From contig JAFPUN010000015.1 in the NCBI GenBank assembly GCA_017395365.1, positions 22,074 through 86,073 on the forward strand: DNA of 64,000 nucleotides, given 5' to 3'. Positions 15,701 to 60,951 of this stretch are shown here, one piece after another. Origin of the DNA: Bacteroidales bacterium (GTDB taxonomy: Bacteria; Bacteroidota; Bacteroidia; Bacteroidales; F082). Position numbers and translations under genes: made by a program. Positions within the stretch are counted from its first letter, which is position 1, and each line of letters opens with the position of its first letter. Below the pieces are notes generated by a model. That model was not told the origin of the DNA, made no database searches, and saw only the letters and a program-made list of their open reading frames with translations.

Positions 15701-15776
15701 TTTGGCCTTCAGCAGTCAGCCATCAGCAGTCAGCCTTAGTGCTACAAAGCTGAGAGCTGACGGCTGATTGCTTACA
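15701..15776. repeat. Inverted word array (CAGTCAGC type)
   Basis: The left arm holds repeated CAGCAGTCAGCC/ATCAGC words. The right arm (15746-15776) holds GAGAGCTGACGGCTGATTGC, the reverse complement of the same words. It lies between the Fic terminator and the convergent tricorn gene. Confidence 0.65.
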
Positions 15777-15824
15777 GCTAAAGAAGCTTAATTCAGTTTC
15801 ATTTCGAACAGCCACTTTCTATAT

Positions 15825-18800
15825 TTACTTCGTCTTGTCCGGCCAAGCAGGAATTTCTGGAATGTCAGGATAATTCTTCATCTGCTCCAGGATGACTTCG
15901 ATGGCCTTGTTGAGTTGATCGTCAACACCCTCAAACTCGCGGGCAGGATCGTTGTCGATGACGATGTCGGGATCCACGCCATAGCCTTCGATGACCCAGT
16001 TGCCTTTCTCGTCGAAAGGAGCAAACTCGGGACGGGTAAGCGAGCCTCCGTCGATGAAAGGCAGACTTCCACGGATGCCAACCACACCGCCCCAAGAGCG
16101 CATTCCGATGGTCGTGCCGATTTTGTGCTTCTTGAACTGATAGGGGAACAAGTCTCCATCTGAAGCAGAGTACTTGTTGAACAGCAGCACCTTGGGACCC
16201 AGCATCATCTTGGTGGGCTTGGTCTCAGGCTCGCCGTTACGCATTACGTCGTACATCGACAATTCGCGACGCAGGCGCTCCACAATCATCGGGCTGACAT
16301 TGCCGCCACCGTTGCCACGGTCATCGATGATGAGGGCCTTCTTGTCGAGTTGGGGATAGAAATACTTGGCGAACTCGTTCAAGCCTTCCACGCCCATGTC
16401 GGGAATGTGGATGTAACCCACCTGTCCGTTGGTGGCCTTGCTCACCTTCTCCACATTACCTTGCACCCAGTTGTAGTAGTAAAGGCCGGTTTCGTCGGCA
16501 ATGGGTTTCACCACCACATCGCTGGCGCCACTCTCCGAAGCTTTGCTATTCAAGGTCAGCAGCACCGCCTTGTCGGCCTTGCCGATGAGAGCGGCATACA
16601 TGTCCTTCAAGTCCTTGGTGCTCTGTCCATCGATGGCGATGATGAAGTCGCCTTCCTTGGCATTCACACCCACCTCAGTCAGTGGCGAGCGGGTCTTCTC
16701 GTTCCAGTTCTCGCCCTTTAATATCTTGTCAATCTGATAGTAGCCCGACTTGTCGCGGTGGATGCGGCAGCCCAGCATACCCATGGGGATGCGTTCAGGC
16801 TTCACACGGTCGCCTTCACCCACATAAGCGTGACCGATGTTGATCTCACCAATCAGTTCACCGATAAGGTAGTTCACATCGTTGCGGTCGGCGCAATAAG
16901 GCAACAGCTTGCCGTATTTCTCCTTCATGGCAGGCCAATCCACGCCATGCATATTGGGCGCATAGAAGAAGTCGCGCATCTGGCGCCAGGCCTCGTTGTA
17001 GATCTGCGTCCACTCGGTGCGCAAGTCGACCCATTTCTTCATGTTCGAGAGGTCGATGACGTCATCGCCTTTGCCGCCTTCACCCGGCTTGCCGCCGCCA
17101 GGCGTGGGACCTTTGGGCGCATTGACGACCTTATAGCCACGGCCTTCGCGCATAAGCATCTTGCTGCCGTCGGGCGTTAGCTGATAGCCAAAGCCACCGA
17201 TGGAGGTGCATTTCTTCGACTTGGCATCGAAATAGCCGAGGCCACCGCCATTGCGTCCGGCCGCCACATAATACAAGCCGTTTTCCACACCCGTCAGGTT
17301 CCAGTATCTACCTGCGTTGACAGGCAGCACCACTACCCTATTACTGATGCCGTCGAAGTCAATTTTCACTTCTTTTACATCTTTCTTGCCTTCGGGTTTG
17401 TCCTCAGGCTTACCCTCTGGTTTTCCCTTTGGGCTGTCCTTTGGTTCATCTTTCTCTCCCTCCACTTTCACCTCATCATTTTCCGTCAAGAACGGCGACG
17501 GTGTGTCTTTCTGCAAGGTAATCAGATAGATCTTCGACATGTCGGTATAGACATGGTTCCACTCCAGCCAGCCGTATGTCGGGCGGAAGTCGCGCTCGGA
17601 GGTGAAATAGAGGTACTTGCCACTCTTGTCGAAGGCAGGCGACGAGGAGTTGTACCAACTGTCGGTGACCGTCTCATCCTTCCCTGAATCGACATTGTAG
17701 ATGTGGATTTGGCTCACGCTGAAGGTGCTCGGCATGGCATAGGCAATCCAACGGCTGTCGGGCGACCAGCAGAAGTCGTCCATCTCGCCCGCCCTACTGC
17801 TGGCCACTTCAGTGACCTTCTTGGAAGCCACGTCCACCATATTGATGCGGTTCATCTTGTCGTCCCAAAGGATTTTCTTGCTGTCAGGCGACCAAAGCAG
17901 GTTATACTTGTATGTATCTGAATTCTTGGTCAGCTGGATGGCTTCTTCCTTGCCGTCTTGGGCCTGGATGTAAATTTCATCCTCACCCGTGCGGTCGCTG
18001 ATGTAGGCGATGTATTTGCCGTCGGGCGACCAAGCCACATTGCGGTCATGGGCATTGTCGCTCTGGGTCAGGTTACGCGTGATACCCGACTTGACCGGCA
18101 CCGTCCACACGTCACCGCGGGCGCCGAAGGCCACACGCTTGGCATCAGGTGAGATGCTGCTCGTGTTGATGAAATTGGAGGCGTCCACATACTTGGTGCG
18201 CGTCGACTTGTTGTCGTTGGCCATCTGCACAGGGATGGGATAGACCTTGCCGTCGGCGAGGTTGTAACGGAACAGTTGACCACCATTTTCATAGACGATA
18301 TCCTTATCACCGAGCGAGGGCCATTTGATGTCATAATAGGTGTAGTCGGTCACCTTGGTGGTCTGCTTTGTGCCCCGGTCGTAGCAAAACAGGTTCATCG
18401 TGCGGTCGCGGTCGGAACAGAAATAGACCTTGTTGCCGACCCACATCGGGAAGATGTCCTGCGCATTGTTGTTGGTGATGTTTTCGATCTTCTTCGACTT
18501 GAAGTCATAGGTCCACACATCGTCGGCCATGCCGCCACGGTAGTATTTCCATGTACGGAACTCACGCATCACGCGGTTGTAGGCAATCTGTTTGCCGTCG
18601 GGTGAATACGAGATCCAGCCGCCTTCAGGCAGGGGCAGTTGCTCGGCCAGGCCACCGTTGATGTTGGCGAGGAAGAGCTGACCCACGAAGTCGTCCCAAC
18701 TCTCCTTACGCGAGCGGAAGACGATGTTCTCGTTGTCCTTCCATGCCATGACGATGTTGTTCGGACCCATGCGGTCGCTGATGTCGTCGCGGCCCAAGGT

Positions 18801-19124
18801 AGGCGTATAGGTCAGGCGCGTGGGTGTGCCACACTCGGGATAAGGCATGACATAGACCTCCGTGTTGCCGTCATATTGAGCCGTAAAGGCCAGATGTTTG
18901 CCATCAGGCGAGAAACGCGCAAACATCTCATAGCCGTTGGCATCATTGGTGATTTTGTGGGCAATGCCGCCCTTGATGTCGACGGAATATAGGTCACCGC
19001 CATAGCTGAATACCACGTTGTTGCCGTGGATGGTCGGGAAGCGTAGCATTTTGGCTTCCTCTTGGGCAGTTAGACTATATGCGCCCAAAAGCAAAAAAGA
19101 CAGAATTAAATGTTTGATTTTCAT
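15825..19124 (-). CDS. Tricorn-type S41 peptidase, exported
   Basis: The 1099-residue protein has a signal peptide (MKIKHLILSFLLLGAYSLTAQ), a long beta-propeller region with repeated PDGK and WSPD blades (about residues 25-520), a Lys/Pro/Glu/Gly-rich linker (KGKPEGKPEDKPEGKK, about 555-585), a second core segment, a PDZ-like domain (KEGDFIIAIDGQSTKDL) and the C-terminal S41 catalytic domain. The nucleophile is probably Ser988 in SASDGDLF; the DDRGNGGGN loop upstream forms the oxyanion/substrate-side region. This is the layout of tricorn core proteases, here probably periplasmic, trimming peptides. The linker is an unusual low-complexity insertion. The gene has its own promoter and no operon partner. 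Confidence 0.93.
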   Translation of the reverse strand: MKIKHLILSFLLLGAYSLTAQEEAKMLRFPTIHGNNVVFSYGGDLYSVDIKGGIAHKITNDANGYEMFARFSPDGKHLAFTAQYDGNTEVYVMPYPECGTPTRLTYTPTLGRDDISDRMGPNNIVMAWKDNENIVFRSRKESWDDFVGQLFLANINGGLAEQLPLPEGGWISYSPDGKQIAYNRVMREFRTWKYYRGGMADDVWTYDFKSKKIENITNNNAQDIFPMWVGNKVYFCSDRDRTMNLFCYDRGTKQTTKVTDYTYYDIKWPSLGDKDIVYENGGQLFRYNLADGKVYPIPVQMANDNKSTRTKYVDASNFINTSSISPDAKRVAFGARGDVWTVPVKSGITRNLTQSDNAHDRNVAWSPDGKYIAYISDRTGEDEIYIQAQDGKEEAIQLTKNSDTYKYNLLWSPDSKKILWDDKMNRINMVDVASKKVTEVASSRAGEMDDFCWSPDSRWIAYAMPSTFSVSQIHIYNVDSGKDETVTDSWYNSSSPAFDKSGKYLYFTSERDFRPTYGWLEWNHVYTDMSKIYLITLQKDTPSPFLTENDEVKVEGEKDEPKDSPKGKPEGKPEDKPEGKKDVKEVKIDFDGISNRVVVLPVNAGRYWNLTGVENGLYYVAAGRNGGGLGYFDAKSKKCTSIGGFGYQLTPDGSKMLMREGRGYKVVNAPKGPTPGGGKPGEGGKGDDVIDLSNMKKWVDLRTEWTQIYNEAWRQMRDFFYAPNMHGVDWPAMKEKYGKLLPYCADRNDVNYLIGELIGEINIGHAYVGEGDRVKPERIPMGMLGCRIHRDKSGYYQIDKILKGENWNEKTRSPLTEVGVNAKEGDFIIAIDGQSTKDLKDMYAALIGKADKAVLLTLNSKASESGASDVVVKPIADETGLYYYNWVQGNVEKVSKATNGQVGYIHIPDMGVEGLNEFAKYFYPQLDKKALIIDDRGNGGGNVSPMIVERLRRELSMYDVMRNGEPETKPTKMMLGPKVLLFNKYSASDGDLFPYQFKKHKIGTTIGMRSWGGVVGIRGSLPFIDGGSLTRPEFAPFDEKGNWVIEGYGVDPDIVIDNDPAREFEGVDDQLNKAIEVILEQMKNYPDIPEIPAWPDKTK

Positions 19125-19165
19125 AAAAGGAAGTGTTTGAATTTGTCTATAGTTTCAATTTTTGG

Positions 19166-19173
19166 CAAAGATA
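19166..19173 (-). promoter_or_regulatory. -7 box TATCTTTG for tricorn gene
   Basis: A minus-strand consensus box 42 bases upstream of the tricorn ATG at 19124. Confidence 0.65.
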
Positions 19174-19317
19174 ATGAGATTTTTCATAGGGACAAAAATC
19201 GTTTTGATTTTTTTATAAAATAATAACATTCAATAAAATACAGAAATACAAGTCAGAAAAAGCATGGACAAAACGAGACGCCAACCTATCAACCACTTGA
19301 CATGTTCACAAATTGAT

Positions 19318-19325
19318 TAACTTTG
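19318..19325 (+). promoter_or_regulatory. -7 box TAACTTTG for first LRR lipoprotein
   Basis: The box lies 73 bases before the ATG at 19398 and overlaps the earlier in-frame start codon at 19323, which supports the later ATG. Confidence 0.55.
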
Positions 19326-19397
19326 CCATCAATTTATAGCAGATGTATATGGGAACATAGCAGCGAGACGCTAATACAAGAATTAAAACCTACTTTT

Positions 19398-20363
19398 ATG
19401 AAAAAGACGACAACCACAATTATCATGATGATTTGCATCCTGATGGTATCTATTTCTGGATGCCGGAAAACAGAAGCCGACATTCTGGGAATCGTTTCCA
19501 CCGAAAAGGTCGAAAACCTTTTTGGCACTACCGTCAAGGTGCACTATTCCAACAGCACGAAGATGTATTTCCATTTGCTTTCTGACACGACTGCCGAGGT
19601 GGTCAATTCGCGCTGGTTTTATACCGAAGAAGGCGAAACGGCACCTTGGGTTTATCGCGGTGATGTCGTTGTCCCAGACCGTTTTGTCCACGGTGGCAAG
19701 ATGTTCAAGGTGACTTGCATCGGGGAAGGCTGTTTTTGGGAAAGCACAGGTCCTGACGGAATCGTCAATCTGATTTCTTCTGTTGAATTGCCCAACACCA
19801 TCGACACGATTCGCAAAAACGCTTTCTATACTTGTAAAAACATGACTTCCATTACAATTCCCAATTCGGTGCGATATATCGGAGAGAATGCTTTCTGCGA
19901 GTCAGGCTTGACCTCCTTAACGCTTCCCGAGTCAGTAGAATATGTTGGTAAAGGCGCTTTTTGCAATACCGATTTGACCACATTTGAACTGCCCCAATCC
20001 TTCGAAAAGATTCCTGCTTCTATGTTTTGGGGATGTGTTGATATGACTTCGGTAAAACTGCACGACCGTCTTACTAATATCGGCGATTATGCCTTTAGTT
20101 GGACTGGGGTCAGTAGTTTCGAGATCCCTGCTTCTGTGAAAGAGTTAGGGATGGGGGTTTTGTATGATTCCCGTTCGCTGAAAACTTTGGTGTGCCTTCC
20201 TGTTGTGCCTCCCATGAAAGATCCCAATAGCAATTATCCAGAGGATTACCTCATCATTTGCGATTCGCTCGAAACCGTATATGTCCCAATGCAAAGCGTT
20301 GAAGCGTATAAGGAATCCCCGCAATGGCGGCTGTACAAGGACATTATTGTCGGAATGCAATAA
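19398..20363 (+). CDS. BspA-like leucine-rich-repeat lipoprotein
   Basis: The start at 19398 gives a good lipoprotein signal, MKKTTTTIIMMICILMVSISGC, with the acylated Cys in the SGC lipobox. The mature part holds LRR_5 (BspA-type) repeats: SSVELPNTIDTIRKNAFYTC, SITIPNSVRYIGENAFCES, SLTLPESVEYVGKGAFCN and two more, ending in VYVPMQSVEAYKESPQW, the usual cap of these proteins. BspA-like proteins sit on the surface and mediate adhesion in several Bacteroidales; a surface-binding role is inferred. A second protein of the same type follows 22 bases downstream, so the two are probably co-transcribed and paralogous. Confidence 0.88.
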   Translation: MKKTTTTIIMMICILMVSISGCRKTEADILGIVSTEKVENLFGTTVKVHYSNSTKMYFHLLSDTTAEVVNSRWFYTEEGETAPWVYRGDVVVPDRFVHGGKMFKVTCIGEGCFWESTGPDGIVNLISSVELPNTIDTIRKNAFYTCKNMTSITIPNSVRYIGENAFCESGLTSLTLPESVEYVGKGAFCNTDLTTFELPQSFEKIPASMFWGCVDMTSVKLHDRLTNIGDYAFSWTGVSSFEIPASVKELGMGVLYDSRSLKTLVCLPVVPPMKDPNSNYPEDYLIICDSLETVYVPMQSVEAYKESPQWRLYKDIIVGMQ

Positions 20364-20385
20364 ACTTGGTTGAACTTGAATTTTG

Positions 20386-21114
20386 ATGAATATGAAAACA
20401 AATAATATATGGAAAGGCTTATTGGCCATCGTTTTAGGTGTTGTCATGACTGCTTGCCAAAAAGATGACAACGAACCGATGAAAATCATTTCCACCCAAG
20501 AAGTGGTTCGCGAAGGCAAAGTGATTGTAGAAGCCAGTTATCAAAACGAACTGAAGAAGATGTATTTCATCCTCGTTTCGCCCAATACCGCTGTCGTTAC
20601 CCGAGCGACGGACTTCAATCCCGAGTTGGTCAATCGGCAGTATTACGGGAAAGAAGTCATTCCGTCCGAGTTCACCCATCTTGGACAGAGCTATACAGTG
20701 GTTGGAATCAACGATGGGGCTTTCAATGGATGCAACAAGTTGACTTCCGTAGTCATGCCCAATACGGTGACCACAATAGGCAGGTATGTATTCATGGAAT
20801 GCACGGCCTTGAAGAACATCACTTTTTCAAACACCTTGGAGTCGATTGGCTACGAATCGTTTGTGCAATGCAGTCAAATCACTTCAATGGATTTTCCTGC
20901 TTCCCTTCAAGAGTTTTGGACTGATGTCTTCAAGGATTGTTCTTCTATGACTTCGATGACTTGTCGGGCAACGACTCCTCCCCATATCATTGGGTCGACA
21001 TGGGAAATGAACAATCAGATTATCCAAGAAATCAAGGTGCCGCAAGCCAGTGTCGAGGCCTATAAGGCTGCACCAGTTTGGAGTATTTTTGCTGATAGAA
21101 TAGTGGGGTACTAA
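20386..21114 (+). CDS. BspA-like leucine-rich-repeat lipoprotein (second copy)
   Basis: ATG at 20386 gives a lipoprotein signal (NIWKGLLAIVLGVVMTAC) with Cys after the TA of the lipobox. The mature part is a shorter version of its upstream neighbour: both have a 'KxVEASYxNELKKMYFxLxSxxTAVVT' style N-terminal segment, then LRR_5 repeats (SVVMPNTVTTIGRYVFMEC, NITFSNTLESIGYESFVQC, SMDFPASLQEFWTDVFKDC) and the cap VPQASVEAYKAAPVWS. The pair looks like a tandem duplication followed by divergence. Surface display is inferred from the signal; the ligand is unknown. Confidence 0.87.
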   Translation: MNMKTNNIWKGLLAIVLGVVMTACQKDDNEPMKIISTQEVVREGKVIVEASYQNELKKMYFILVSPNTAVVTRATDFNPELVNRQYYGKEVIPSEFTHLGQSYTVVGINDGAFNGCNKLTSVVMPNTVTTIGRYVFMECTALKNITFSNTLESIGYESFVQCSQITSMDFPASLQEFWTDVFKDCSSMTSMTCRATTPPHIIGSTWEMNNQIIQEIKVPQASVEAYKAAPVWSIFADRIVGY

Positions 21115-21151
21115 TATACTGAAAAACAAAACACTACAAAAACGTTAAAAA

Positions 21152-21868: not shown

Positions 21869-21894
21869 AATGTAGGTAGTGTCAGGAAAAACAC

Positions 21895-21902
21895 TACCTT
21901 TG
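21895..21902 (+). promoter_or_regulatory. -7 box TACCTTTG inside a hairpin, for folP
   Basis: The box overlaps the right arm of the hairpin GGTAGTGT (21875-21882)/ACACTACC (21891-21898), 14 bases before the folP ATG. The hairpin may end the LRR transcript while the box starts folP. Confidence 0.5.
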
Positions 21903-21916
21903 CAGAAAAAACCAAG

Positions 21917-37282: not shown

Positions 37283-37455
37283 AAGCAACTGGAAGCCTCT
37301 CCTCCGTTATAGGAGATTGCGGTTTCCACATTCCGCGAATGCGGAACCGCAATGACGCTTTAGGTAGAGTCTTCAGTTGCCAGAAGCCAGAGGCCAGAAG
37401 CCAGAAGCAATTCTACATTCTACATTCTACATTCCTCATTCCGCATTCCTCATTC
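37283..37455. repeat. Inverted word array around a dispersed hairpin
   Basis: CAACTGGAAGCCTCT (37286-37300) is complemented by AGAGTCTTCAGTTGC (37366-37380). Between them is a dispersed element ATTGCGGTTTCC...GGAACCGCAATGAC (37316-37356) with an inner TTCCGC-gaat-GCGGAA. To the right are repeats of GCCAGAAGCCAGAGG (37380-37410) and then ACATTCT and CATTCC words up to the permease stop. It fills the 37240-37455 gap. Confidence 0.65.
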
Positions 37456-38523
37456 CTAACTAATCCTCACCCTAGGATCAATAATCCCATAAATAATATC
37501 CACCACAATATTCACAATAATCAACATGACCGCGATGAGCAGCACCGCACCCATGATGACTGGGAAATCGTATTTGTCCAACGCATCGACCACCACCACG
37601 CCGATGCCCTTCCAGTCGAAGACATACTCGACGAAGACCGCACCTGCCAACAGTGAGGCGAACCAGCCCGACACCGCCGTCACCACGGGGTTCAAGGCAT
37701 TGCGCAGCGCATGGACGCAGATGACACGCCAAGGCTTCAAGCCTTTGGCACGCGCCGTGCGCACATAGTCCATCGACATGGCCTCGAGCAAAGAGGTGCG
37801 TGTCAACTCTGTCACCACGGCCAAAGGGCGCATACCCAGGGTCAAAGCGGGCAAGATAAGGTTGTGCAAACTCAAGAACTCTCCTCTGCCGTATTCGTCG
37901 ACGGTGTAAAGACTGCCCGTCATGCTCAAGCCCGTATAATGCTCAAGCAAGAAGCCGAAGATCCACGCCATCAAGATGGCCGCGAAGAACGAGGGCAGCG
38001 ACATGCCTATCGTCGTGATAAACAAGGTCAGCTTATTGAGGAACTTGGTATTGATGACAGCGGCCAAGATGCCAATCATCAAGCCCAACACCATGGCGAT
38101 GGAGATGGACACCGCCGCCAGCAACAAGGTATTGGGGAAGGCCTCGCCCAGGACATCAGACACCTTGCGTTTGCTTTGGTACGATATCCGAAGATAGGGC
38201 GGCTTCAGCACTACGGCCGTCGAACCCAGAGTGGCAATCTTGGCATAACGGCCTATCTTTTCAAGTTTTTGTGTGCCTTCCGAAACGTCATAGAACGAAA
38301 TCGGGACCAAGTCATTGAGGTAATCCACATATTGTTTCCCAAGACTTTGATTGAGCCCCAACTCTTCGCGGATGGCATTCACCGAGGCTTCGTCGGCCCG
38401 CTGGCCGAGCATCATCTGGGCAGGGTCGCCGGGCAGGATATTGAAAAGGAAAAAAACCAGCGTCGCGACGCCCCATAGCACCGCGATGCCGTAAAGCAAT
38501 TTCCTTATGATATAACTGCCCAT
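37456..38523 (-). CDS. Peptide/nickel-type ABC transporter permease
   Basis: The 355-residue protein has the DppB/OppB layout: MGSYIIRKLLYGIAVLWGVATLVFFLFNILPGDPAQMMLGQRA at the start, six hydrophobic helices, and the coupling-helix signature ARAKGLKPWRVICVHALRNALNPVV, which contacts the ATPase. An extra periplasmic stretch at about residues 70-125 (DVSEGTQKLEKIGRYAKI and onward) separates helices 1 and 2. It should import peptides across the inner membrane. No second permease or ATPase gene is adjacent; the only candidate binding protein is the OppA-like lipoprotein at 42864-44549. It is four bases from the upstream DoxX-like gene. Confidence 0.9.
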   Translation of the reverse strand: MGSYIIRKLLYGIAVLWGVATLVFFLFNILPGDPAQMMLGQRADEASVNAIREELGLNQSLGKQYVDYLNDLVPISFYDVSEGTQKLEKIGRYAKIATLGSTAVVLKPPYLRISYQSKRKVSDVLGEAFPNTLLLAAVSISIAMVLGLMIGILAAVINTKFLNKLTLFITTIGMSLPSFFAAILMAWIFGFLLEHYTGLSMTGSLYTVDEYGRGEFLSLHNLILPALTLGMRPLAVVTELTRTSLLEAMSMDYVRTARAKGLKPWRVICVHALRNALNPVVTAVSGWFASLLAGAVFVEYVFDWKGIGVVVVDALDKYDFPVIMGAVLLIAVMLIIVNIVVDIIYGIIDPRVRIS

Positions 38524-44560: not shown

Positions 44561-44730
44561 TTAACTACAGATTATACAGATTTTACCGATTGTTCCCCGA
44601 CATTGTTTGGCTGCAAGCAGCCGATTGGTACAGATGAGCTGTCGCAGTCTGGGATCTGTAAAAATGGGCGCTTGCACCATCAAATTCATCGTCGGGAATC
44701 TGTCTCATCTGTTCAATCTGTAGTTTTTAA
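44561..44730. repeat. Inverted word array (ACAGATT type) between OppA-type gene and lon
   Basis: Left arm 44561-44601 is TTAACTACAGATTATACAG..., with CAGATT-like words, ending CCCCGAC. Right arm 44691-44730 is GTCGGGAATCTGTCTCATC..., ending ATCTGTAGTTTTTAA. They are complementary over some 40 bases with several bulges. The centre includes a smaller hairpin GGCTGCaagcaGCC. The right arm abuts the lon stop. Confidence 0.7.
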
Positions 44731-50796: not shown

Positions 50797-50898
50797 GGCT
50801 ACTGGCCACTGGCTCCTGGCTCCTGGCAGCTTCAACGAAGAGAAAAAGCATCCCATTTGGGTGAAGCTGCCAAAAGCCAGAGGCCAAAAGCCAGAAGC
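50797..50898. repeat. Inverted word array (TGGC/GCCA type) between serC and serA
   Basis: Left arm 50797-50834 has five TGGC words ending TGGCAGCTTCA. Right arm 50861-50898 begins GTGAAGCTGCC and has the complementary GCCAAAA, GCCAGAG and GCCAGAA words. The arms pair over about 38 bases around a 26-base centre. It fills the intergenic gap and may form a strong RNA stem between the two coding regions. Confidence 0.75.
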
Positions 50899-51865: not shown

Positions 51866-51967
51866 GGCTTTTTGACCATGACCCTTGACCATGACCATGA
51901 CCGTTTTCACCCCAGTGAAGCTGTCATAGTCAGGGTCAGGGTCAAAGGTCAAGGTAATATAAGAGCC
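51866..51967. repeat. Inverted word array (TGACC/GGTCA type) between serA and DUF1015 gene
   Basis: Left arm 51866-51910 has four TGACC-containing words and ends GTTTTCAC. After CCCA the right arm 51915-51967 begins GTGAAGCTG and holds complementary GTCAGGG, GTCAAAG and GTCAAGG words, ending in AAGAGCC that pairs with GGCTTTT. The inner GTGAAGCTG is shared with the array at 50861. Confidence 0.75.
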
Positions 51968-53349: not shown

Positions 53350-53390
53350 CGGGACGCGAGACATTGAGCCTCGCGTCCCGTTTTGTTTTT
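53350..53390 (+). terminator. Terminator of the serine cluster
   Basis: CGGGACGCGAG (53350-53360) pairs perfectly with CTCGCGTCCCG (53370-53380), followed by TTTTGTTTTT. The left arm text GGGACGCGAGACATT is also present 22 bases earlier (53329-53343). Confidence 0.9.
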
Positions 53391-53407
53391 ATACGTTAAA
53401 CGAAGAA

Positions 53408-54052: not shown

Positions 54053-54076
54053 GTTTTGATACAATTAGTTTGGGGA

Positions 54077-54084
54077 CAAAAGTA
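54077..54084 (-). promoter_or_regulatory. -7 box TACTTTTG for nitroreductase gene
   Basis: A minus-strand box back to back with the xerD promoter 33 bases to the right. Confidence 0.6.
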
Positions 54085-54116
54085 GGAAAAAACAACACGA
54101 TAGCAAGAAAAAAACG

Positions 54117-54124
54117 TACTTTTG
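54117..54124 (+). promoter_or_regulatory. -7 box TACTTTTG for xerD
   Basis: The box is 13 bases from the ATG at 54138, giving a very short leader. Confidence 0.65.
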
Positions 54125-54137
54125 CAAAAACAAAACG

Positions 54138-55058
54138 ATGGAACAGGTCACCCTCAGCCCTAACCTCATCAAGCACTTCGCCGACTACCTTCGGCTGGAG
54201 CTTTCGCTGTCCGACAACAGCGTGGAGGCCTATCACCATGATGTCCATTTGTTTCTGCAATACCTTGAAGCCGAAAAGGCCTCAACTGACATCAACAACA
54301 TCACCCAAGAAACCATCGAGAACTTCTTCGCCTACCTCTTCGACCTCAACATCGGCGCCACCTCGCAAGCCCGCATCCTGTCGGGACTGAAGTCGTTCTG
54401 GCGCTACCTGATACAAGAGGAACTCGCCGACAAAGACCCTACCCTGCTCATCTCCTCACCCACCCTAGGACGACATCTTCCTGAGGTGCTGAGCTACGAG
54501 GAAATCCAAAAGATGATCGACAGCATCGACCTCAGCCAGCCTACTGGCCACCGCAACAAAGCCATGATTGAGGTGATGTACGGCTGCGGACTCCGTGTCT
54601 CCGAACTCATAGGACTGCAAATCAGCGACATCTACCGCAATGACGGCTTCCTCCGCATCCTCGGCAAGGGCAGCAAGGAACGACTCGTGCCCATCGGCGA
54701 CAGCAGCCTGAAGATCCTCTACCAATACATCGAAGGCGCAAGGCTACATATTTCACCTCAACCCAAATTCACCGACACCGTGTTCCTGAACAGCCGTGGC
54801 ACAGGCCTCACCCGCCAGATGGTCTTCCTCATCGTGAAAGACCTCGCCGAGAAGAACGGCATCAACAAAACCATCAGCCCTCACACCTTCCGACACAGTT
54901 TTGCCACCCACCTCTTGGAAGGCGGCGCCAACCTGCTTGCTGTGCAGCAGATGCTAGGACACGCTAGCGTGAGCACGACGGAAATCTACACGCATATCTC
55001 TGACGAGTTGCTGCGTGACACACTAACCACGTATCATCCGAGGTTTAAGAAACAATAG
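54138..55058 (+). CDS. xerD: Tyrosine recombinase XerD
   Basis: The 306-residue protein has an N-terminal SAM-like core-binding domain and a C-terminal catalytic domain with Arg153 (GCGLRVSEL), Lys178 (LGKGSKERLVP), His249 and Arg252 (HTFRHSFATHLL), His275 (LGHAS) and nucleophile Tyr284 (EIYTHIS). All catalytic residues are intact. With XerC it resolves chromosome dimers at dif. It lacks integrase-specific extensions and is flanked by core genes, so a housekeeping role is likelier than a mobile-element integrase. The word array at 55057 begins at its stop codon. Confidence 0.94.
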   Translation: MEQVTLSPNLIKHFADYLRLELSLSDNSVEAYHHDVHLFLQYLEAEKASTDINNITQETIENFFAYLFDLNIGATSQARILSGLKSFWRYLIQEELADKDPTLLISSPTLGRHLPEVLSYEEIQKMIDSIDLSQPTGHRNKAMIEVMYGCGLRVSELIGLQISDIYRNDGFLRILGKGSKERLVPIGDSSLKILYQYIEGARLHISPQPKFTDTVFLNSRGTGLTRQMVFLIVKDLAEKNGINKTISPHTFRHSFATHLLEGGANLLAVQQMLGHASVSTTEIYTHISDELLRDTLTTYHPRFKKQ

Positions 55059-55190
55059 GCCATTGGCTCTTGGCCTCTGGCTACTGGCTTTTGGCTCCTG
55101 ACAGTCCACAGCCTCATTGCGGTTCCGCCTCCGCGGAATGAGGCGACCCGCAATCTCCTTAATATGGTAGGGCTGTCAGAAGCCAAAGGC
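55057..55190. repeat. Inverted word array around a dispersed hairpin, between xerD and kdsA
   Basis: Left arm 55057-55107 holds six TGGC words and ends GGCTCCTGACAG. Right arm 55170-55190 is GGGCTGTCAGAAGCCAAAGGC, its complement. The centre 55111-55160 is a dispersed element ATTGCGG...CCGCAAT with an inner GCCTC/GAGGC hairpin. AAACAATTAAACGATTAAAC words follow up to the kdsA promoter. Confidence 0.75.
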
Positions 55191-55237
55191 AAACAAACAA
55201 TTAAACGATTAAACAATTAAACAACCAACAAAACCGT

Positions 55238-55245
55238 TATCTTTG
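55238..55245 (+). promoter_or_regulatory. -7 box TATCTTTG for kdsA
   Basis: The box is 16 bases from the kdsA ATG at 55262. Confidence 0.7.
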
Positions 55246-55261
55246 CAAAAAAATCTCCACC

Positions 55262-56074
55262 ATGGACACCTCAAAATACGACTTCCTGAAAGTTATGCGC
55301 CCCGACCGCTTCTTCCTCTTGGCCGGCCCTTGTGTTATCGAGGACGAGACCTCGCCTCTCTTCATCGCCGAGACCTTGAAGAACATCTGCCAAAGACTTG
55401 ACATTCCCTTGGTTTTCAAAGGCTCCTACCGCAAGGCCAACCGTTCACGTTTGGATTCTTTCACTGGAATTGGCGATGAAAAAGCATTGAAAGTGCTGCA
55501 AAGAATCGGGAAGGAATTCGAGCTCCCCGTGGTGACCGACATCCACTCCGCCGAGGAAGCCGCCATGGCTGCCGAATATGTTGACGTGCTACAGATTCCA
55601 GCCTTTCTCTGCCGCCAAACCGACCTCCTGGTAGCTGCTGCCAAAACCGGCAAGACCGTCAACATCAAAAAGGGCCAATTTCTTTCGGGCGAGGCCATGG
55701 GCTTTGCCGTCGAAAAGGTGCACCAGTCAGGCAACGACAAGGTAATGCTCACCGAGCGCGGTTCCATGTTCGGCTATCAAGATTTGGTGGTGGATTACCG
55801 CAACATCGCTATCATGCAGAAGTTCGATGTGCCCGTCATCCTTGATGTCACGCACTCCTTGCAACAGCCCAACCAAAGCAGTGGCGTCACGGGCGGACAA
55901 CCCGAAATGATAGGCCTCATCGCCAAAGCGGGAATCGCAGCAGGTGCCAACGGCATCTTCATGGAGGTGCATCCCGAACCTAAAAAAGCCAAGTCCGACG
56001 GCGCCAATATGCTCCGCCTCGACCTCGCGGAAGAACTCCTAACAAAGCTCGTTAGAATCAAGGAGTCTCTATAA
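55262..56074 (+). CDS. kdsA: 3-deoxy-8-phosphooctulonate synthase
   Basis: The 270-residue protein matches KdsA: FFLLAGPCVIEDE, VFKGSYRKANRSRLDSFTG, TDIHSAEEAA, QIPAFLCRQTDLL, NIKKGQFLSGEAM, LTERGSMFGYQDLVVDYR, and the FMEVHPEP segment near the end. It condenses phosphoenolpyruvate with arabinose 5-phosphate to give KDO 8-phosphate for lipopolysaccharide in the cytoplasm. It has its own promoter and no adjacent LPS genes. Downstream is the array at 56079. Confidence 0.97.
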   Translation: MDTSKYDFLKVMRPDRFFLLAGPCVIEDETSPLFIAETLKNICQRLDIPLVFKGSYRKANRSRLDSFTGIGDEKALKVLQRIGKEFELPVVTDIHSAEEAAMAAEYVDVLQIPAFLCRQTDLLVAAAKTGKTVNIKKGQFLSGEAMGFAVEKVHQSGNDKVMLTERGSMFGYQDLVVDYRNIAIMQKFDVPVILDVTHSLQQPNQSSGVTGGQPEMIGLIAKAGIAAGANGIFMEVHPEPKKAKSDGANMLRLDLAEELLTKLVRIKESL

Positions 56075-56078
56075 AATT

Positions 56079-56172
56079 GCACGCAGAAATCGCAGAATTA
56101 TATGAAAAGACACGAAACCAGGTCTCGTGTCGTATAGATATTCAAATTCTGCGATTTCTGCGGATTCTGCGT
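56079..56172. repeat. Inverted word array (CGCAGAAT type) between convergent genes
   Basis: Left arm CACGCAGAAATCGCAGAATT and GACACGA (to 56115) pair with TCGTGTC and AATTCTGCGATTTCTGCGGATTCTGCGTG (56125-56172). The right arm has one extra word. It probably terminates both kdsA and the convergent DUF4831 gene. Confidence 0.75.
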
Positions 56173-56185
56173 GAAACCAATGCTA

Positions 56186-57274
56186 TTACTGCATTCTCAT
56201 ATTCACGATTTGACCCGTCTCCGTGTCAAACACCAGCTTCGTATTCGTCAGCGGAGCCGTCAACAAGGCACCCAGTTGGTTGACCACCATCCGGTCCTCA
56301 AACAAGGTCTTATTGCCACACATCACCTTCACATTGGCGGTTTCGGGTAGACGGTAGAACACCTTGTTTTCATATGACATCGACTCCACGGCCGACTGGC
56401 TGGGGGCGTTGATGGTCTCGGTAGTGTTCATGGGCAGGGTCTGGACGGTAATGAGTGCGCCCGAACCCGCCGTGCCGATGGTCAGGCCATCGTTTTCGGA
56501 GAACTTCGCCACGGTCTGCGTAGGCACTTCCTTGTTGGGCACCACATAGACAGTCTTCACCACCGTTCTCTTCACGCGGTTGCCCAAGAGCAGGTTGGTG
56601 TATTGTTCTTCCATGGCGTCAAGCTTCTCATACATCATCTTGAAGGTCTCAGGGTTGGTGGCCATCTCCACATCGCCCGAAATCAGGTAGAACTTCGCTT
56701 TGCGGATTTCCTCGATCTTGTCGGCGGCCTCCTTGGCCATCTGGGCGTTCGACTTGCCCGTCGTGATCAAGTTCATCAGCTTGTGGTCGGAATAGTCGAC
56801 GGGCTGTTGCTCGCAGCACGGCTTCTTGGCAGGCGCTTCACACACCTCTTCCGTGCCGTTCGACATATCGAGACCAACACTGCGGATGATGCCATTGGGC
56901 GTGATGTCGAACTGCATCTTGCTGCCTCCCCTGACGCTACCCAAGGTCACGAAGAACATGGCATTCGGGTCGGGACTGGCCACCGTGCTCATCTTCATGT
57001 CCAACAGACGATATTCCGTGGTTTCATATTCCACATAATCCGCCATCTCCATGTAGTTGGAGGCATAGTCGCTCAACGGGCTTTTCTCCAATGTGGTCTC
57101 CTCGATGATGAAATCGAGCTTCAACATGGTCTGGGGCAAGGCATAATACAAACCGCTATGCTGCCCAGGCGTGACGTTCTTGGCGAAGGTGGTGGTGTAC
57201 TGCGCATGAAGCTGACCGCCCATCAGGACCATGGCCAACAGCGCAAATGCAAACTTTGTAAATGATTTATTCAT
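56186..57274 (-). CDS. DUF4831 protein, exported
   Basis: With the start at 57274 a signal peptide (FTKFAFALLAMVLMGGQLHAQ) is followed by a DUF4831 domain: SGLYYALPQTMLKLDFIIEET, YAGNYM-like PLSDYASNYMEMADYVEYE, then FVTLGSVRGGSKMQFDITPNGIIRSVG. An acidic/Cys segment (EVCEAPAKKPCCEQQP) lies in the middle. The family is confined to Bacteroidetes and has no known function; envelope location is inferred. A TATTTTTG box 26 bases upstream supports the start. Confidence 0.85.
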   Translation of the reverse strand: MNKSFTKFAFALLAMVLMGGQLHAQYTTTFAKNVTPGQHSGLYYALPQTMLKLDFIIEETTLEKSPLSDYASNYMEMADYVEYETTEYRLLDMKMSTVASPDPNAMFFVTLGSVRGGSKMQFDITPNGIIRSVGLDMSNGTEEVCEAPAKKPCCEQQPVDYSDHKLMNLITTGKSNAQMAKEAADKIEEIRKAKFYLISGDVEMATNPETFKMMYEKLDAMEEQYTNLLLGNRVKRTVVKTVYVVPNKEVPTQTVAKFSENDGLTIGTAGSGALITVQTLPMNTTETINAPSQSAVESMSYENKVFYRLPETANVKVMCGNKTLFEDRMVVNQLGALLTAPLTNTKLVFDTETGQIVNMRMQ

Positions 57275-57299
57275 AGTAGTTTCAATTAGTTTCAAACTT

Positions 57300-57307
57300 C
57301 AAAAATA
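57300..57307 (-). promoter_or_regulatory. -7 box TATTTTTG for DUF4831 gene
   Basis: A minus-strand box 26 bases from the ATG at 57274. Confidence 0.55.
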
Positions 57308-57327
57308 CATATTTTCCGTCAAATCCT

Positions 57328-58806
57328 TCAATTTTCGGTTGTTTTTTCCTTCTTGCTGAAAGCCAACAAGGCCAAAAATGTCAGCAATCCATTGATTATC
57401 AAGATTTCAAAACCAATCTTGTAACCTCCAAACAATTGCGGTGAATACTGCTTGAGGAAATAACTGATGACGGGGGAAGCCACCGCAATGAACGGTACGG
57501 CCTTGTCGATGACTCTCCTGTTTTTGACGAACAAGCCGAAGGTGTACAAGCCCAACAACGGCCCATAGGTATACCCCGCGATGTCGAACACCTTGTCGAT
57601 GAGCGACTCGTTGTGGAATGGCCTAAACGCGATGATCACCAGCAGGTAAAGCAATGCGAAAGCCACATGGATCCATTTGCGGTATTTCGTGATTTGCTGC
57701 TCGGTCATCTGCTTCTTGTCGAAGTGCATGAAGTCGAAGCAGAAGGTGGTCGTTAAAGCTGTCAGGGTGCCATCGGCGCTCGAATAGCCGGCCGCCACAA
57801 GTCCGATGACGAAGACGATGGCCGTGAACTTACTCAACGAGAAGGCCACCGAAGGGAAGATCTTGTCGTTGATCACCACACCTGCCTCGTTCACAGGCAA
57901 GGCAAAGCCTGTCGTCTGCGCATAATAGATCAAAGCGGCACCCAAACAGAGGAAGAGTGCATTGACCACCACAAACAGAAGGCTCGAAGTCATCACATTC
58001 TTCTGGGCATCACGCAAGTTCTTGCAGGTCAAGTTCTTTTGCATCATATCCTGGTCCAAGCCCGTCATGGTGATGGTGATGAACATGCCACTCAACACCT
58101 GCTTGACCCAGAACTTGTTGTGCGTCCAATCCGTCTCAAACACCTTGGTATAGCCTTTCTCCGTGGCAGATTTCAAGAGGTCGCCCAAAGAGATATGCAG
58201 GTTGCGCAAGATGAAGAAGGCTGTCAGGAAGGCCGCCAGCAACAGGAAGGTCGTCTGCAGGGTGTCGGTCCAAACCACGGTCTTGATGCCGCCCTTGAAG
58301 GTGTAAAGCAGAATGATGGCGATGAAGATGACCGCCGGCACCCAGAAGGGAATGCCCCAGTCCTTGAAGACGAACTCGTAGAGCACAAACACGACGAGAT
58401 ACATCCGCAACGCCGAGCCCAACAAGCGCGACAGAATGAAAAACGCCGCTCCCGTCTTTTCCGACCTGGGGCCGAAACGCATATTCAAATAGGAATAGAT
58501 CGAAGTCAGGTTAAGACGGTAATACAAGGGCAGCAGCACCAACGCAATCACCGCATAACCCAGCACATAGCCAAACACCAAGGGCATGTAGGTGAACTGC
58601 CCCGTGTATACACCGCCCGGCACCGACATGAAGGTCACGCCTGACAGAGAGGCGCCAATCATGCCATAGGCCACCACGAACCACGGCGAGTTCTTGTTGC
58701 CACGGAAAAACGCGTTATTGTCGGACTTGCGCGCCGTAAAGTGCGAAATCACAAACAAAAGGACGGTATACAAAACAAAAACGGCAAGTATGATGGTCGC
58801 ATTCAT
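57328..58806 (-). CDS. Sodium:solute symporter
   Basis: About 13 hydrophobic helices span the 492 residues, with SSS-family features: SPWFVVAYGMIGASLSGVTFMSVPGGVY near helix 2, GPRSEKTGAAFFILSRLLGSALRM, the GLVAAGYSSADGTLTALTT segment near the sodium site, and DIAGYTYGPLLGLYTFGLF. It couples sodium entry to uptake of a small solute (sugar, proline-like or sialic-acid-like) at the inner membrane; the substrate cannot be told. A TATTTTTG box at 58827 favours the ATG at 58806 over 58815. Confidence 0.92.
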   Translation of the reverse strand: MNATIILAVFVLYTVLLFVISHFTARKSDNNAFFRGNKNSPWFVVAYGMIGASLSGVTFMSVPGGVYTGQFTYMPLVFGYVLGYAVIALVLLPLYYRLNLTSIYSYLNMRFGPRSEKTGAAFFILSRLLGSALRMYLVVFVLYEFVFKDWGIPFWVPAVIFIAIILLYTFKGGIKTVVWTDTLQTTFLLLAAFLTAFFILRNLHISLGDLLKSATEKGYTKVFETDWTHNKFWVKQVLSGMFITITMTGLDQDMMQKNLTCKNLRDAQKNVMTSSLLFVVVNALFLCLGAALIYYAQTTGFALPVNEAGVVINDKIFPSVAFSLSKFTAIVFVIGLVAAGYSSADGTLTALTTTFCFDFMHFDKKQMTEQQITKYRKWIHVAFALLYLLVIIAFRPFHNESLIDKVFDIAGYTYGPLLGLYTFGLFVKNRRVIDKAVPFIAVASPVISYFLKQYSPQLFGGYKIGFEILIINGLLTFLALLAFSKKEKTTEN

Positions 58807-58826
58807 GAGGTACATATTTGGTTGTG

Positions 58827-58834
58827 CAAAAATA
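58827..58834 (-). promoter_or_regulatory. -7 box TATTTTTG for symporter gene
   Basis: A minus-strand box 21 bases from the ATG at 58806, back to back with the DUF486 promoter. Confidence 0.6.
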
Positions 58835-58866
58835 GGAATAAAAGTCGGACATGAAAGAAATTCCCT

Positions 58867-58874
58867 TACTTTTG
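58867..58874 (+). promoter_or_regulatory. -7 box TACTTTTG for DUF486 gene
   Basis: The box is 25 bases from the ATG at 58899 and downstream of the earlier in-frame ATG at 58851, so it fixes the start. Confidence 0.65.
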
Positions 58875-58898
58875 CACGCTGTTAAAAAACGCCATATA

Positions 58899-59270
58899 AT
58901 GAAAGGACTATACACCATTCTTTTACTCATTGTCTCCAATGTCTTCATGACCTTTGCCTGGTACGGACAGTTGAAACTGCTTGAGATCGTGCCCAGTTCC
59001 AAGGACTGGCCGCTCTTTCTCGTCATCCTGATGTCGTGGGGTGTCGCCTTGTTCGAATATTCCTTCATGATCCCCGCCAACCGCATCGGTGCCATGCAAA
59101 ATGGAGGACCTTTCAACCTTATCCAACTGAAAGTCATACAGGAAGCCGTCTCGTTGACCGTCTTTTCCATCATCGTGATCACGGTCTTCAAGACCGAGAC
59201 CTTCCGATGGAACCATATCATCGCTTTCCTCTTCATCATCCTCGCGGTGTTTTTTGCCTTCAAAAAGTAG
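58899..59270 (+). CDS. DMT-like membrane protein (DUF486)
   Basis: The 123-residue protein has four helices (starting LYTILLLIVSNVFMTFAWYG, WPLFLVILMSWGVALFEYSF, LKVIQEAVSLTVFSIIVIT and IIAFLFIILAVFFAF), with the DUF486 motif FEYSFMIPANRIG between helices 2 and 3. The family belongs to the drug/metabolite transporter group and probably acts as a dimer in the inner membrane; the substrate is unknown. It is followed by an 84-base gap and an acidic protein on the same strand. Confidence 0.9.
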   Translation: MKGLYTILLLIVSNVFMTFAWYGQLKLLEIVPSSKDWPLFLVILMSWGVALFEYSFMIPANRIGAMQNGGPFNLIQLKVIQEAVSLTVFSIIVITVFKTETFRWNHIIAFLFIILAVFFAFKK

Positions 59271-59354
59271 TTTTTTGTTGCATCTAAAGGAAAAATGCAT
59301 GATATTTGCGGAGTGAAAAAGACACCATAAACTGACAAAAAGAAAGGACATCAT

Positions 59355-59786
59355 ATGAAATTCTATGACATTGATTCAGTCTTCACCTTTGGCAAATACG
59401 AAGGCATGACCATCGCAGAGGTGTATGAAAAAGACCCCAAGTACTTGAAATACTGCGAAGAAAATATCGACGAGTTCTATGTGTCACCTTCGGTGATGCG
59501 TGAGCTGAAATCGATGAGCCGCTCCATCAATGACTCCGCCCTACTCGATGTGAATTTCGACAAGATGAGCGACGACGAGATCGACAGCTTCATCAGCGGA
59601 CACGACGAAGAAGAGGCCTTTGACGAAGAGCGTCTGGAGCGCGATTTCGACTGGGAGAGCAACGACTTTGCCGATGACTCGCCGTTTGACGAGTTTGAGG
59701 ACGAGTTCGACGAAGACGAGTTTGCCGACGAGTTCGGCGACAGCTTCGATGAGAGCCTGGATGGAAATTTAGATGATTTGTATTGA
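59355..59786 (+). CDS. Small ExoX-C-like protein with very acidic tail
   Basis: Residues 8-36 (SVFTFGKYEGMTIAEVYEKDPKYLKYC) match the small domain found at the C-terminus of exodeoxyribonuclease X and in stand-alone Bacteroidetes proteins: FGKYxGxTIxEVxxxDPxYLxxC. The last 70 residues are almost all Asp, Glu, Phe and Ser (DEFEDEFDEDEFADEFGDSFDE), an extremely acidic disordered tail. No nuclease domain is present. A DNA-mimic or partner-binding role is possible, but only inferred. A strong bidirectional terminator follows. Confidence 0.8.
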   Translation: MKFYDIDSVFTFGKYEGMTIAEVYEKDPKYLKYCEENIDEFYVSPSVMRELKSMSRSINDSALLDVNFDKMSDDEIDSFISGHDEEEAFDEERLERDFDWESNDFADDSPFDEFEDEFDEDEFADEFGDSFDESLDGNLDDLY

Positions 59787-59845
59787 TATTGAAAAGAATA
59801 GATCTTTTTCTTGGAAACAAATCTACCACAAATCTAAAGTAAATA

Positions 59846-59896
59846 AAAATGACCCTCTATGTCATTCCCAAGGGAATCTTAGAGGGTCATTTTTTT
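59846..59896. terminator. Bidirectional terminator between convergent genes
   Basis: ATGACCCTCTA (59849-59859) pairs with TAGAGGGTCAT (59880-59890), enclosing an inner ATTCCC-aa-GGGAAT stem. A and T runs flank both sides, so it serves the acidic-protein gene and the glycosyltransferase gene. Confidence 0.9.
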
Positions 59897-59921
59897 AGTT
59901 CGGTCGGATTAGTAATCCCCG

Positions 59922-60866
59922 TCAATCCACATTCACCTTTTCCGAAATGGAATACACCCGCTTGTCGCGCTGTGTCGATGTGATCATCTCGGCCAGGAAG
60001 CCCGTCGAGAAGAGCTGCACACCGATGATGATGGCCAGAAGGGCGAAATAGAACAGCGGACGGCGCGTCATGCCATACACATGCATGAAGAGTCTCGTGC
60101 AAGCCAGATATACGGCGATGCCGAAACCGGCCAAGAAGGTGATCGAGCCCAGCAAGCCGAAGAAGTGCATCGGCCGGTTGCTGAACTTCGAGATGAAGTT
60201 GATGGTGATCAGGTCGAGATAGCCACGGATAAAACGGCTCAAGCCGAACTTGCTGCTACCGTATTTGCGTTTCTGATGGTGTACCACCTTCTCCCCTATG
60301 TGGCCGAAGCCGTTCATCTTGGCGATGACGGGGATGTAACGGTGCATCTCGCCGTACACCTGGATGTTCTTCACCACCTCGTTGCGATAGGCCTTGAGGC
60401 CGCAGTTGAAATCGTGCAGCTTGATGCCCGACATCCTGCGCGTGGTCCAATTGAAGAATTTGGAAGGGATGTTTTTCATCAGCTTGGAGTCGTAACGCAC
60501 CTTCTTCCAGCCCGAAACGAGGTCATAGCCGTCCTCTTTGATCATCTTGTAGAGTTCGGGGATCTCATCGGGGCTGTCCTGGAGGTCGGCATCCATGGTG
60601 ATGACCACATCGCCTTCGACAACCTTGAAGCCTTCGTTCAGCGCGGGCGACTTGCCGTAGTTCCTCCTGAAGCGCAAGGCTTTCACATTGGGATTGGCTT
60701 CCGCAAGGCCTTGGATGATGGCCCAAGAGTTGTCGGTAGAGCCATCGTCGACGAAGACGATTTCATAGGAAAAGCCATGCTCGTCCATCACGCGACGGAT
60801 CCATGCCTCCAACTCGGGCAGCGACTCGGCTTCATTCAGCAAGGGGACAACAACTGATATATCCAT
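59922..60866 (-). CDS. GT2 glycosyltransferase, membrane-anchored
   Basis: The 314-residue protein has a GT-A fold with MDISVVVPLLNEAESLPEL, FVDDGSTDNSW, the metal-binding ITMDADLQDSP and an acceptor-side QKRKYGSSKFG. Two C-terminal helices (FFGLLGSITFLAGFGIAVYLA and LFYFALLAIIIGVQLFSTGFLAEM) anchor it in the inner membrane. The layout is that of dolichol/undecaprenyl-phosphate mannosyl- or glucosyltransferases (DPM1/GtrB/ArnC type), which make lipid-linked sugars for envelope glycans. No glycan cluster is adjacent. Confidence 0.9.
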   Translation of the reverse strand: MDISVVVPLLNEAESLPELEAWIRRVMDEHGFSYEIVFVDDGSTDNSWAIIQGLAEANPNVKALRFRRNYGKSPALNEGFKVVEGDVVITMDADLQDSPDEIPELYKMIKEDGYDLVSGWKKVRYDSKLMKNIPSKFFNWTTRRMSGIKLHDFNCGLKAYRNEVVKNIQVYGEMHRYIPVIAKMNGFGHIGEKVVHHQKRKYGSSKFGLSRFIRGYLDLITINFISKFSNRPMHFFGLLGSITFLAGFGIAVYLACTRLFMHVYGMTRRPLFYFALLAIIIGVQLFSTGFLAEMITSTQRDKRVYSISEKVNVD

Positions 60867-60872
60867 ATTCTT

Positions 60873-60951
60873 TTGACTTCGGGACTTCGAGACTTCGAGA
60901 CTTCGGGGCTTTGCTGTCTCGCAGTCCCGTAGTCTCGCAGTCTCGTGTCAA
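60873..60951. repeat. Inverted word array (GAGACTTC type) between GT2 gene and serS
   Basis: Left arm 60873-60909 (TTGACTTCGGGACTTCGAGA and onward) and right arm 60916-60951 (GTCTCGCAGTCCCGTAGTCTC and onward, ending GTGTCAA) are complementary around a 6-base centre. Each arm has four words of 8-9 bases. It ends three bases before the serS stop codon. Confidence 0.75.

Follow-up and report, generated by a model that had tools for sequence, protein, structure and literature searches.

Intergenic hairpins whose two arms are arrays of a short repeated word are frequent in a Bacteroidales genome, and within its genus, a gut lineage, the word changes between related species at one and the same gap. 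These hairpins were analysed in a 64,000-nucleotide stretch (the window; contig JAFPUN010000015.1 of assembly GCA_017395365.1, positions 22,074 to 86,073 of the forward strand), in further sequence of the same genome, and in its relatives. On balance, they appear to be several families of dispersed palindromic repeats, similar to miniature inverted-repeat transposable elements (MITEs) or to repetitive extragenic palindromic (REP) sequences, which replace one another in gaps, either through insertion or through the exchange of alleles of a gap.

Families of inverted word arrays

The source of the window, genome G000, comprises 2.11 Mb in 25 contigs. The window and 800 kb of further sequence formed a sample of 864 kb, or 41% of the genome. 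The detector required at least two words at a pitch of 6–9 bases, followed within 220 bases by at least two complementary words. Dinucleotide shuffles of the gaps and coding windows of equal length served as controls. The scan for tandem arrays used an approximate shuffle, one per gap, and the later tests relied on exact doublet shuffling. Reading by eye supplied the word labels at the 60867 gap (see below), the words in the serC/serA-like and xerD/kdsA gaps, and the shared loops.

Inverted word arrays were found in 35 of the 335 gaps of the sample, compared with 1 of 3,350 shuffles, which rules out chance or base composition. Only 9 of 1,005 coding windows passed the detector, which rules out a coding origin. 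Tandem arrays with a score of at least 11 occurred 68 times in gaps and 0 times in the shuffles; the pitch was 7 in 39 of them and 8 in 15. Among 44 gaps with a 7-periodic array, 23 had an inverted partner of the same core, compared with a mean of 1.9 (maximum 7) for random gaps and 8.7 (maximum 15) when other array gaps served as the control. The detector also reported 9 of 265 gaps at near loci (L031–L070; 3 of 1,325 shuffles) and 15 of 263 at far loci (L071–L110; 3 of 1,315 shuffles), several of these hits being unlike the present kind.

The words consist of a core of 4–6 bases, repeated about two to five times per arm at a pitch of 6–9 bases, with free letters between the cores. Nine family cores were recognized: TGGCnnn, TCAGCnn, TTAGCnn, GAATGnn, TGACC(n), GACTnCGr, CGCAGAnnn, CAAAACnnn, and ACAGATnnn. 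TGGC accounted for nine of the 35 hits (including CTGGC and TTGGC variants), TCAGC for seven, GAATG and TGACC for four each, GACT for three, CGCAGA for two, and TTAGC, CAAAAC, and ACAGAT for one each. The three remaining hits (AGCAG, ACCAA, and ATTA) resemble other structures and were left out of the folding, stop-distance, and nesting tests, leaving 32 hairpins.

Six of the nine words occur at more than one locus in the sample, and TGGC-type words gave 67 overlapping matches in the whole genome at up to two mismatches. The order of the arms is fixed within a family. TGGC word pairs were followed within 170 bases by inverted pairs in 49 cases, and the reverse order occurred once; the corresponding counts were 15 to 0 for TCAGC, 7 to 0 for GAATG, and 7 to 0 for CAAAAC. 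The inner stem and loop are also partly common within a family (GGCAGCTT...AAGCTGCC in TGGC and GTGCTACC in TCAGC). When exact cores were searched beyond the genus, 3 of 295 other Bacteroidota genomes contained three TCAGC words followed by three inverted ones, with 0 control matches, and the equivalent TGGC search found 0 of 295. Three Bacteroidota loci outside the genus (L308, L309, and L310) hold TCAGC inverted arrays with other loops, each lying within a gap or at its edge.

Word replacement between serS and a glycosyltransferase gene

The gap between serS and a family-2 glycosyltransferase gene (the 60867 gap) was compared in 30 species of the same genus, which supplied the best 30 loci of 99 genomes searched. 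A word hairpin is present in 25 of these species. The labels were CAAAAC in ten species, TATGGC/ATGACC in six, GACT in four, TTAGC in four, a GAGAC variant in one, and none in five. On a tree of the adjacent gene, these six labels need 15 changes, where the least possible number is 5; shuffled labels needed 18.0 on average, and 3 of 200 shuffles were as low. Near species differ: L207 carries ATGACC among L206, L208, and L209, which carry CAAAAC, and L189 carries TTAGC beside L195 and L198 with CAAAAC. The initial annotation had proposed from the sites of the window that the foldback is kept while the word changes, and orthologous gaps across species bear this out.

Left and right halves built from the same word pair within a species (-46 kcal/mol) and between species (-48 kcal/mol), and less so when the words differ (-21 kcal/mol). 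Alleles with different words share neither the loop nor the outer arms, both of which change with the word (by eye). In two of three different-word pairs, the flanks are near-identical up to the gap. Of 72 same-word pairs, 19 differ by 0.7–12.4% in the gap while the fourfold degenerate sites of the next gene differ by 29–47%; five further pairs are alike in both. In five of nine profiled same-word pairs, the likeness clearly does not extend beyond the gap and a surrounding stretch of about 100 bases or less. The ATGACC alleles of G041, G020, G089, and G064 match the query at 94–100%, and no other scored copy in those four genomes reaches 60 bases at more than 84% identity (candidates were scored in part in G064 and G089). 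For these alleles, the simplest interpretation is a short-tract exchange at a single locus.

Sites in the window

The arrays of the window are listed below in window coordinates, without strand assignment.

15690..15790: TCAGCnn hairpin of four words, a loop with GTGCTAC, and three words, 3' of a Fic/DUF4172 gene
37379..37457: GCCAnnn array, the right arm only of a TGGC-family element whose left arm has no word array, then a direct CATTCnn array (CTACATTC)
44567..44721: ACAGAT inverted array, pitch 9, arms about 100 bases apart; the long loop is much shorter in the near relative G079
50797..50898: TGGCnnn hairpin between serC and a serA-like gene, found by detector and by reading
51866..51954: TGACC hairpin, pitch 6–7; a GACT hairpin lies in the same gap of G079 (C86:52515-52584)
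55057..55190: TGGCnnn hairpin between xerD and kdsA; loop 55099-55178 with a CATTGCGG palindrome
56079..56175: CGCAGA hairpin, pitch 9, after kdsA; G079 and L158 have the same word and another loop
60867..60953: GACT hairpin, pitch 8, between serS and the family-2 glycosyltransferase gene
9935..10022: CAACTGA-type direct array without an inverted partner; a relative of the class, no hairpin

The initial annotation had listed inverted arrays at these places (in part at 9935). This holds for 15701, 44561, 50797, 51866, 56079, and 60873, but the array at 9935 is direct only, that at 37283 is one-sided, and that at 55057 is lopsided. The last site falls outside the two-plus-two rule of the detector because it has six words on the left and just two partial words on the right (by eye). 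The hairpin at 51866 was missed in the whole-sample run, most likely because an open reading frame called from a TTG start covered the gap; it was recovered in the comparison of G000 with G079. A different word had also been claimed for each site. Several families are indeed present, but three of the eight sites (37283, 50797, and 55057) belong to one of them, TGGCnnn, and the recurrence of words in the sample is likewise at odds with the claim.

An Rfam scan of the window at gathering scores gave 5S rRNA (63885-63996, minus strand) as its sole match, and the hairpins matched no Rfam family. A second dispersed palindrome, AGGAGATTGCGG...CCGCAATGA, lies within the loop of several TGGC hairpins and also in one gap of its own; its locations are 13917-14491 and 55099-55178 in the window, and C21:84601, C20:33014, and C20:52307. 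Arrays with an 11-base pitch lie in gaps at 7603-7656 of the window and at C16:183985-184039 (TTCGATAGTT type; TACGCGAAAAT five times). A direct CATTCnn array of 96 bases at C20:108983-109078 of G000, which the inverted-array detector did not report, has nearly uniform cores and mixed letters between them.

Other gaps and a near relative

The serC/serA-like gap contains TGGC in the window, TAAGC in L035, TTAGC in L037, and direct arrays or none in others among those listed; L031, L032, and L038 have no array. Downstream of the serA-like gene in L052 and L104, arrays of the TTTTCAATTCTCAATT type lie inside an apparent coding gene (by eye). The xerD/kdsA gap contains TGGC in the window, L156, and L157, TTAGC nested in TGGC in L171, and GAATG in L158 and G079, with a decayed GAATG array in L170; further loci have no array. 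A palindrome, GGCCCTTCGAC (GGCCCTTCGACAAGCTC...GAGCCTGTCGAAGGGCC type), is found upstream of kdsA in L154, L155, L165, and L167.

The 55057 gap thus holds TGGC in G000 and GAATG in G079. The GAATG allele of G079 is identical to that of G020 at 89 of 93 positions, and the kdsA genes of these two genomes are identical at 686 of 811. In L157, the loop of this hairpin is inverted (49 of 51 bases match as the reverse complement, compared with 23 of 27 forward), which shows that exchange between arms at times occurs. The cores of the left arm of L157 have decayed, and the right arm does not follow (by eye).

G079 encodes an identical glycosyltransferase protein and shows 88% mean identity to G000 over aligned pieces, with 90–99% identity in the flanks of shared array sites. 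For nine of the 35 G000 sites, the fetched part of G079 contains an ortholog, and the word is kept in all nine; the site at 56082 has a different loop in G079, and that at C16:204321 has extra words there. In the other direction, 10 of 13 G079 sites have an ortholog in the G000 sample, and the word differs in one, 51866, with GACT in G079 and TGACC in G000. GACT-like remnants remain outside the TGACC arms of G000 (by eye). Words of the G079 site C76:37834 have been lost in G000, and an ACGAATT array of about 100 bases is present in G079 only (window 33868 in G000).

The TCAGC unit

TCAGC hairpins occupy the centre of a larger unit of 148–164 bases in the aligned copies, which starts with TAAGTAGATGAGCAGAATTAGTTTACA and ends with AATGCAGTTTAATTTTGAACAGTTACTTA. 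Twelve copies with both ends were found in the fetched sequences, in ten different flanks. Eleven hold TCAGC, and one, at C16:8175 of G000, holds GACT. Terminal inverted repeats are common to all 12, and TA stands at the start in 11 of 12 and at the end in 11 of 12. The stretch at 15690..15790 looks like a copy, decayed at its ends, of this MITE-like unit of about 164 bp. It matches 33 of the 99 genomes, its own included, and in 13 genomes 10–13 of its hits are among the matches listed, partly both strands of one palindrome. A second copy in G000, at C20:193946, is 91% identical. The inverted ends (TAAGTA...), the TA at both ends in most copies, and the many copies are the points of likeness to a MITE of the Tc1/IS630 kind, which we take the unit to be. 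This frame was seen with TCAGC and the one GACT copy only; no such ends were seen in the other families.

Structure, position, and constraint

All 32 hairpins tested fold better than their shuffles (RNA z < -2), and the TCAGC consensus forms three 5-bp helices parted by 2x2 internal loops. In 23 co-directional gaps, the hairpin starts on average 15.4 bases from the stop codon, compared with 34.6 under uniform placement (2 of 5,000 simulations were as low). Divergent gaps are under-used (4 of 83 compared with 31 of 249, p 0.06, all 35 hits). A run of five T lies within 22 bases to the right in 1 of 32 hairpins and a run of five A to the left in 0 of 32, and the opposite polarity occurs in four and four. 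On this polarity, the reading as intrinsic terminators was rejected.

Core letters are nearly constant across orthologous or dispersed copies, whereas between-core letters and loops vary. Off-consensus letters amounted to 0 of 160 in the core and 7 of 48 between cores in TTAGC, 3 of 318 and 25 of 105 in CAAAAC, and 20 of 840 and 40 of 240 in TCAGC. The arms were said in the initial annotation to match each other, and this is true of the core but not of the letters between cores. The between-core match of TGGC arms was 0.29, compared with 0.435 for permuted arms of different hairpins (0 of 1,000 permutations as low); it was also below the permuted value in CAAAAC (0.143 and 0.322; 8 of 1,000) and TCAGC (0.29 and 0.393; 7 of 1,000). 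Five smaller sets, several with few letters (4 to 39), showed no significant excess or deficit: TTAGC (0.412 and 0.491) and GACT (0.618 and 0.677) leaned lower, and GAATG, AATG, and TGACC were slightly higher. The test is soft because the copies are related; it also pools left with right arms of such copies, so that the expected match may be inflated, as it certainly is in TCAGC.

Two-sided changes were absent from 29 TCAGC rows. CAAAAC had seven two-sided cells, a number reached in 1 of 300 shuffles, or in 44 of 300 when pairs were counted; most of them lie outside the cores, because just three core letters change in this family. ATGACC had three such cells (55 of 300 shuffles). These cells are a weak pairing signal.

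A letter rule was seen in the larger sets, where G is the first between-core letter in 6 of 378 cases (six sets) and C the last in 3 of 296 (five sets); the six largest word sets were pooled, and their copies are partly related. The rule is broken by TGGC (C last in 39 of 82), AACTC (C last in 4 of 19), CAGTT (G first in 4 of 10), and, in both halves, GTCTC (G first in 10 of 10, C last in 5 of 10). In nine of 24 loops, the sequence is more palindromic than in 95% of its shuffles, and individual nested cases are clear by eye. Nesting of new hairpins at old centres was not supported as a general rule, with an outer-flank complementarity of 6.09 compared with 6.39 for permuted flanks and 1 of 32 at the 99% null.

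Possible mechanisms

The replacement of dispersed repeat families, favoured above, suggests a process in which the families would compete for gaps after stop codons. A family may reach a gap by insertion, TCAGC possibly as part of its Tc1/IS630-like MITE; alternatively, short-tract recombination may import the gap allele of another species. A new hairpin may at times land inside an older one. The same word would stand in both arms where a sequence-specific partner or mobilising enzyme needs the core in both, with no copying between arms. On the messenger, the hairpin would probably be a structure of the 3' end, either tolerated or of slight benefit.

Several observations weigh against this explanation. 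No mobilising gene was identified, and the five Y1 transposase loci have no such hairpin in their vicinity. No target-site duplication was established for the unit in the 12 copies, and only the TCAGC/GACT unit has ends; TGGC, GAATG, TGACC, and CAAAAC have no conserved ends outside their arms (by eye). Nesting is confined to single cases (L171, 51866, C16:268737, and C21:125729), with outer flanks overall not above the permuted value. At the 60867 gap, the label tree comes from a single gene that could itself be recombined, 48 of the 72 same-word pairs differ by 13–35%, and in the other four of the nine profiled pairs (TTAGC, GACT, and one CAAAAC among them) the gap is just modestly more similar than its flanks. 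Exchange is therefore clear for part of the alleles, and conservation may explain the rest.

A word-coded system is an unlikely but arguable alternative. Each core would have its own trans-acting factor, which recognizes it in both arms, and sockets after stop codons would swap hairpins, so that a site changes its partner between species but keeps a hairpin; in the larger families, the between-core mismatch and the letter rule (no G first, no C last) would be maintained. Slightly less plausible is the independent evolution of a long hairpin after each stop codon as a terminator or messenger stabiliser, the word being incidental. The initial annotation had raised selection for a stem near gene ends, and this is possible given the position directly after stop codons, the consistently stable folding, the marginal avoidance of divergent gaps, and the retention of a foldback at the 60867 gap in most species. 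However, terminator polarity is absent, and stems that evolved independently would neither reuse a word across many loci nor keep cores constant next to freely varying letters.

Renewal in place, also put forward in the initial annotation, is doubtful. Here, an arm would gain words by slippage and be copied onto the other by template switching (quasipalindrome correction), resulting in a concerted change of the word at a fixed site. The inverted loop of L157 is what exchange between arms would leave, words have been gained or lost between G000 and G079 at the C16:204321 and C76:37834 sites, and TCAGC and TTAGC hairpins have a GTGCTAC-like loop in common though all core words differ by the same letter. 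However, arm copying would make between-core letters complementary, and their under-matching in TGGC, CAAAAC, and TCAGC speaks against it (the five other sets show no significant excess either), as does the lack of two-sided change in TCAGC; arm-to-arm copying is weakened accordingly. The words come from families with many copies, of which one sits in a unit of mobile type, the loop and outer arms at the 60867 gap change with the word, and the left arm of L157 has drifted alone. Least probable, and indeed very unlikely, is the mobilisation of REP or REPIN elements by host REP-associated tyrosine (RAYT, Y1) transposases. G000 carries Y1 transposase genes (five matches to PF01797), and a position adjacent to stop codons is the published REP pattern in excerpts of PMC3733652. 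However, no word foldback with a score of at least 20 lies in the approximately 3.3 kb around any of the five genes (about 1.5 kb on each side), where other palindromes flank, and the word hairpins, with their repeated words and lengths of about 40–150 bases, are unlike REPs of 20–40 bases. At two loci of G000 (L246, C7:25691, and L247, C20:167247), the Y1 genes are flanked by TCTGCGTCCCGCAGATTG and similar short palindromes, probable REPs of their own.

Relation to known systems

The STRR repeats of Calothrix are tandem 7-base words, described as tandem and not as inverted arrays; the present arrays share the 7-base words but are inverted. In the Piggy study of intergenic allele switching, whole intergenic alleles are said to be replaced between lineages while the genes stay unchanged; the alternative alleles described here are hairpins from different word families. 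Listings from searches of open-licence PMC papers showed no account of multi-word inverted arrays from Bacteroidales.

The nearest described kind found is that of the GGGANTN heptamer arrays of Xanthomonas. According to excerpts of Rehm et al. (2015, PMC4692102), these and the GGGGAYT heptamers of Nostoc are mostly intergenic, dispersed, and often near gene ends, with fixed and variable positions, and many pairs are inverted (70 and 75 cases). The same excerpts describe a single G-rich type of word in each genome, for which quadruplex formation is proposed, and mention the STRR heptanucleotide repeats of Calothrix. The present arrays are similar in their 7-base pitch, fixed core with variable positions, and inverted pairs, and pitches of 6, 8, and 9 occur as well. 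Unlike the heptamers, many words coexist, none of the nine cores contains a G3 tract, and one gap can carry different words in different species.

TAACTGA direct repeats occur in Beggiatoaceae, Cyanobacteria, and five Bacteroidetes, as reported in excerpts of MacGregor (2015, PMC4679880). The arrays described there are direct, with one indirect repeat in BOGUAY, where they lie mostly just before start codons. Judged from that text, both kinds are intergenic arrays of 7-base words, patchy across phyla with strain-specific positions, but the TAACTGA repeats are direct arrays of one word, whereas many words form inverted arrays here. The REP/REPIN and GTAG/CGTC palindromes are described in excerpts of PMC3733652 as short, dispersed, and located beside stop codons, with several families in some genomes. 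The word hairpins likewise lie near stop codons, mostly between co-directional or convergent genes. They differ in that their arms are word arrays, the hairpins are longer, and no flanking Y1 gene was found at the five loci.

Implications

The usual interpretation of an intergenic hairpin is a terminator or a copy of a single repeat, but several word families share the gaps of these genomes. Conserved cores beside free letters point to a putative sequence-specific reader. If the letter rule and the under-matched arms are upheld in more data, any mechanism must account for both. The same site close to a stop codon is taken by unrelated words in related species, which offers a directly testable model for the invasion and replacement of small repeats.

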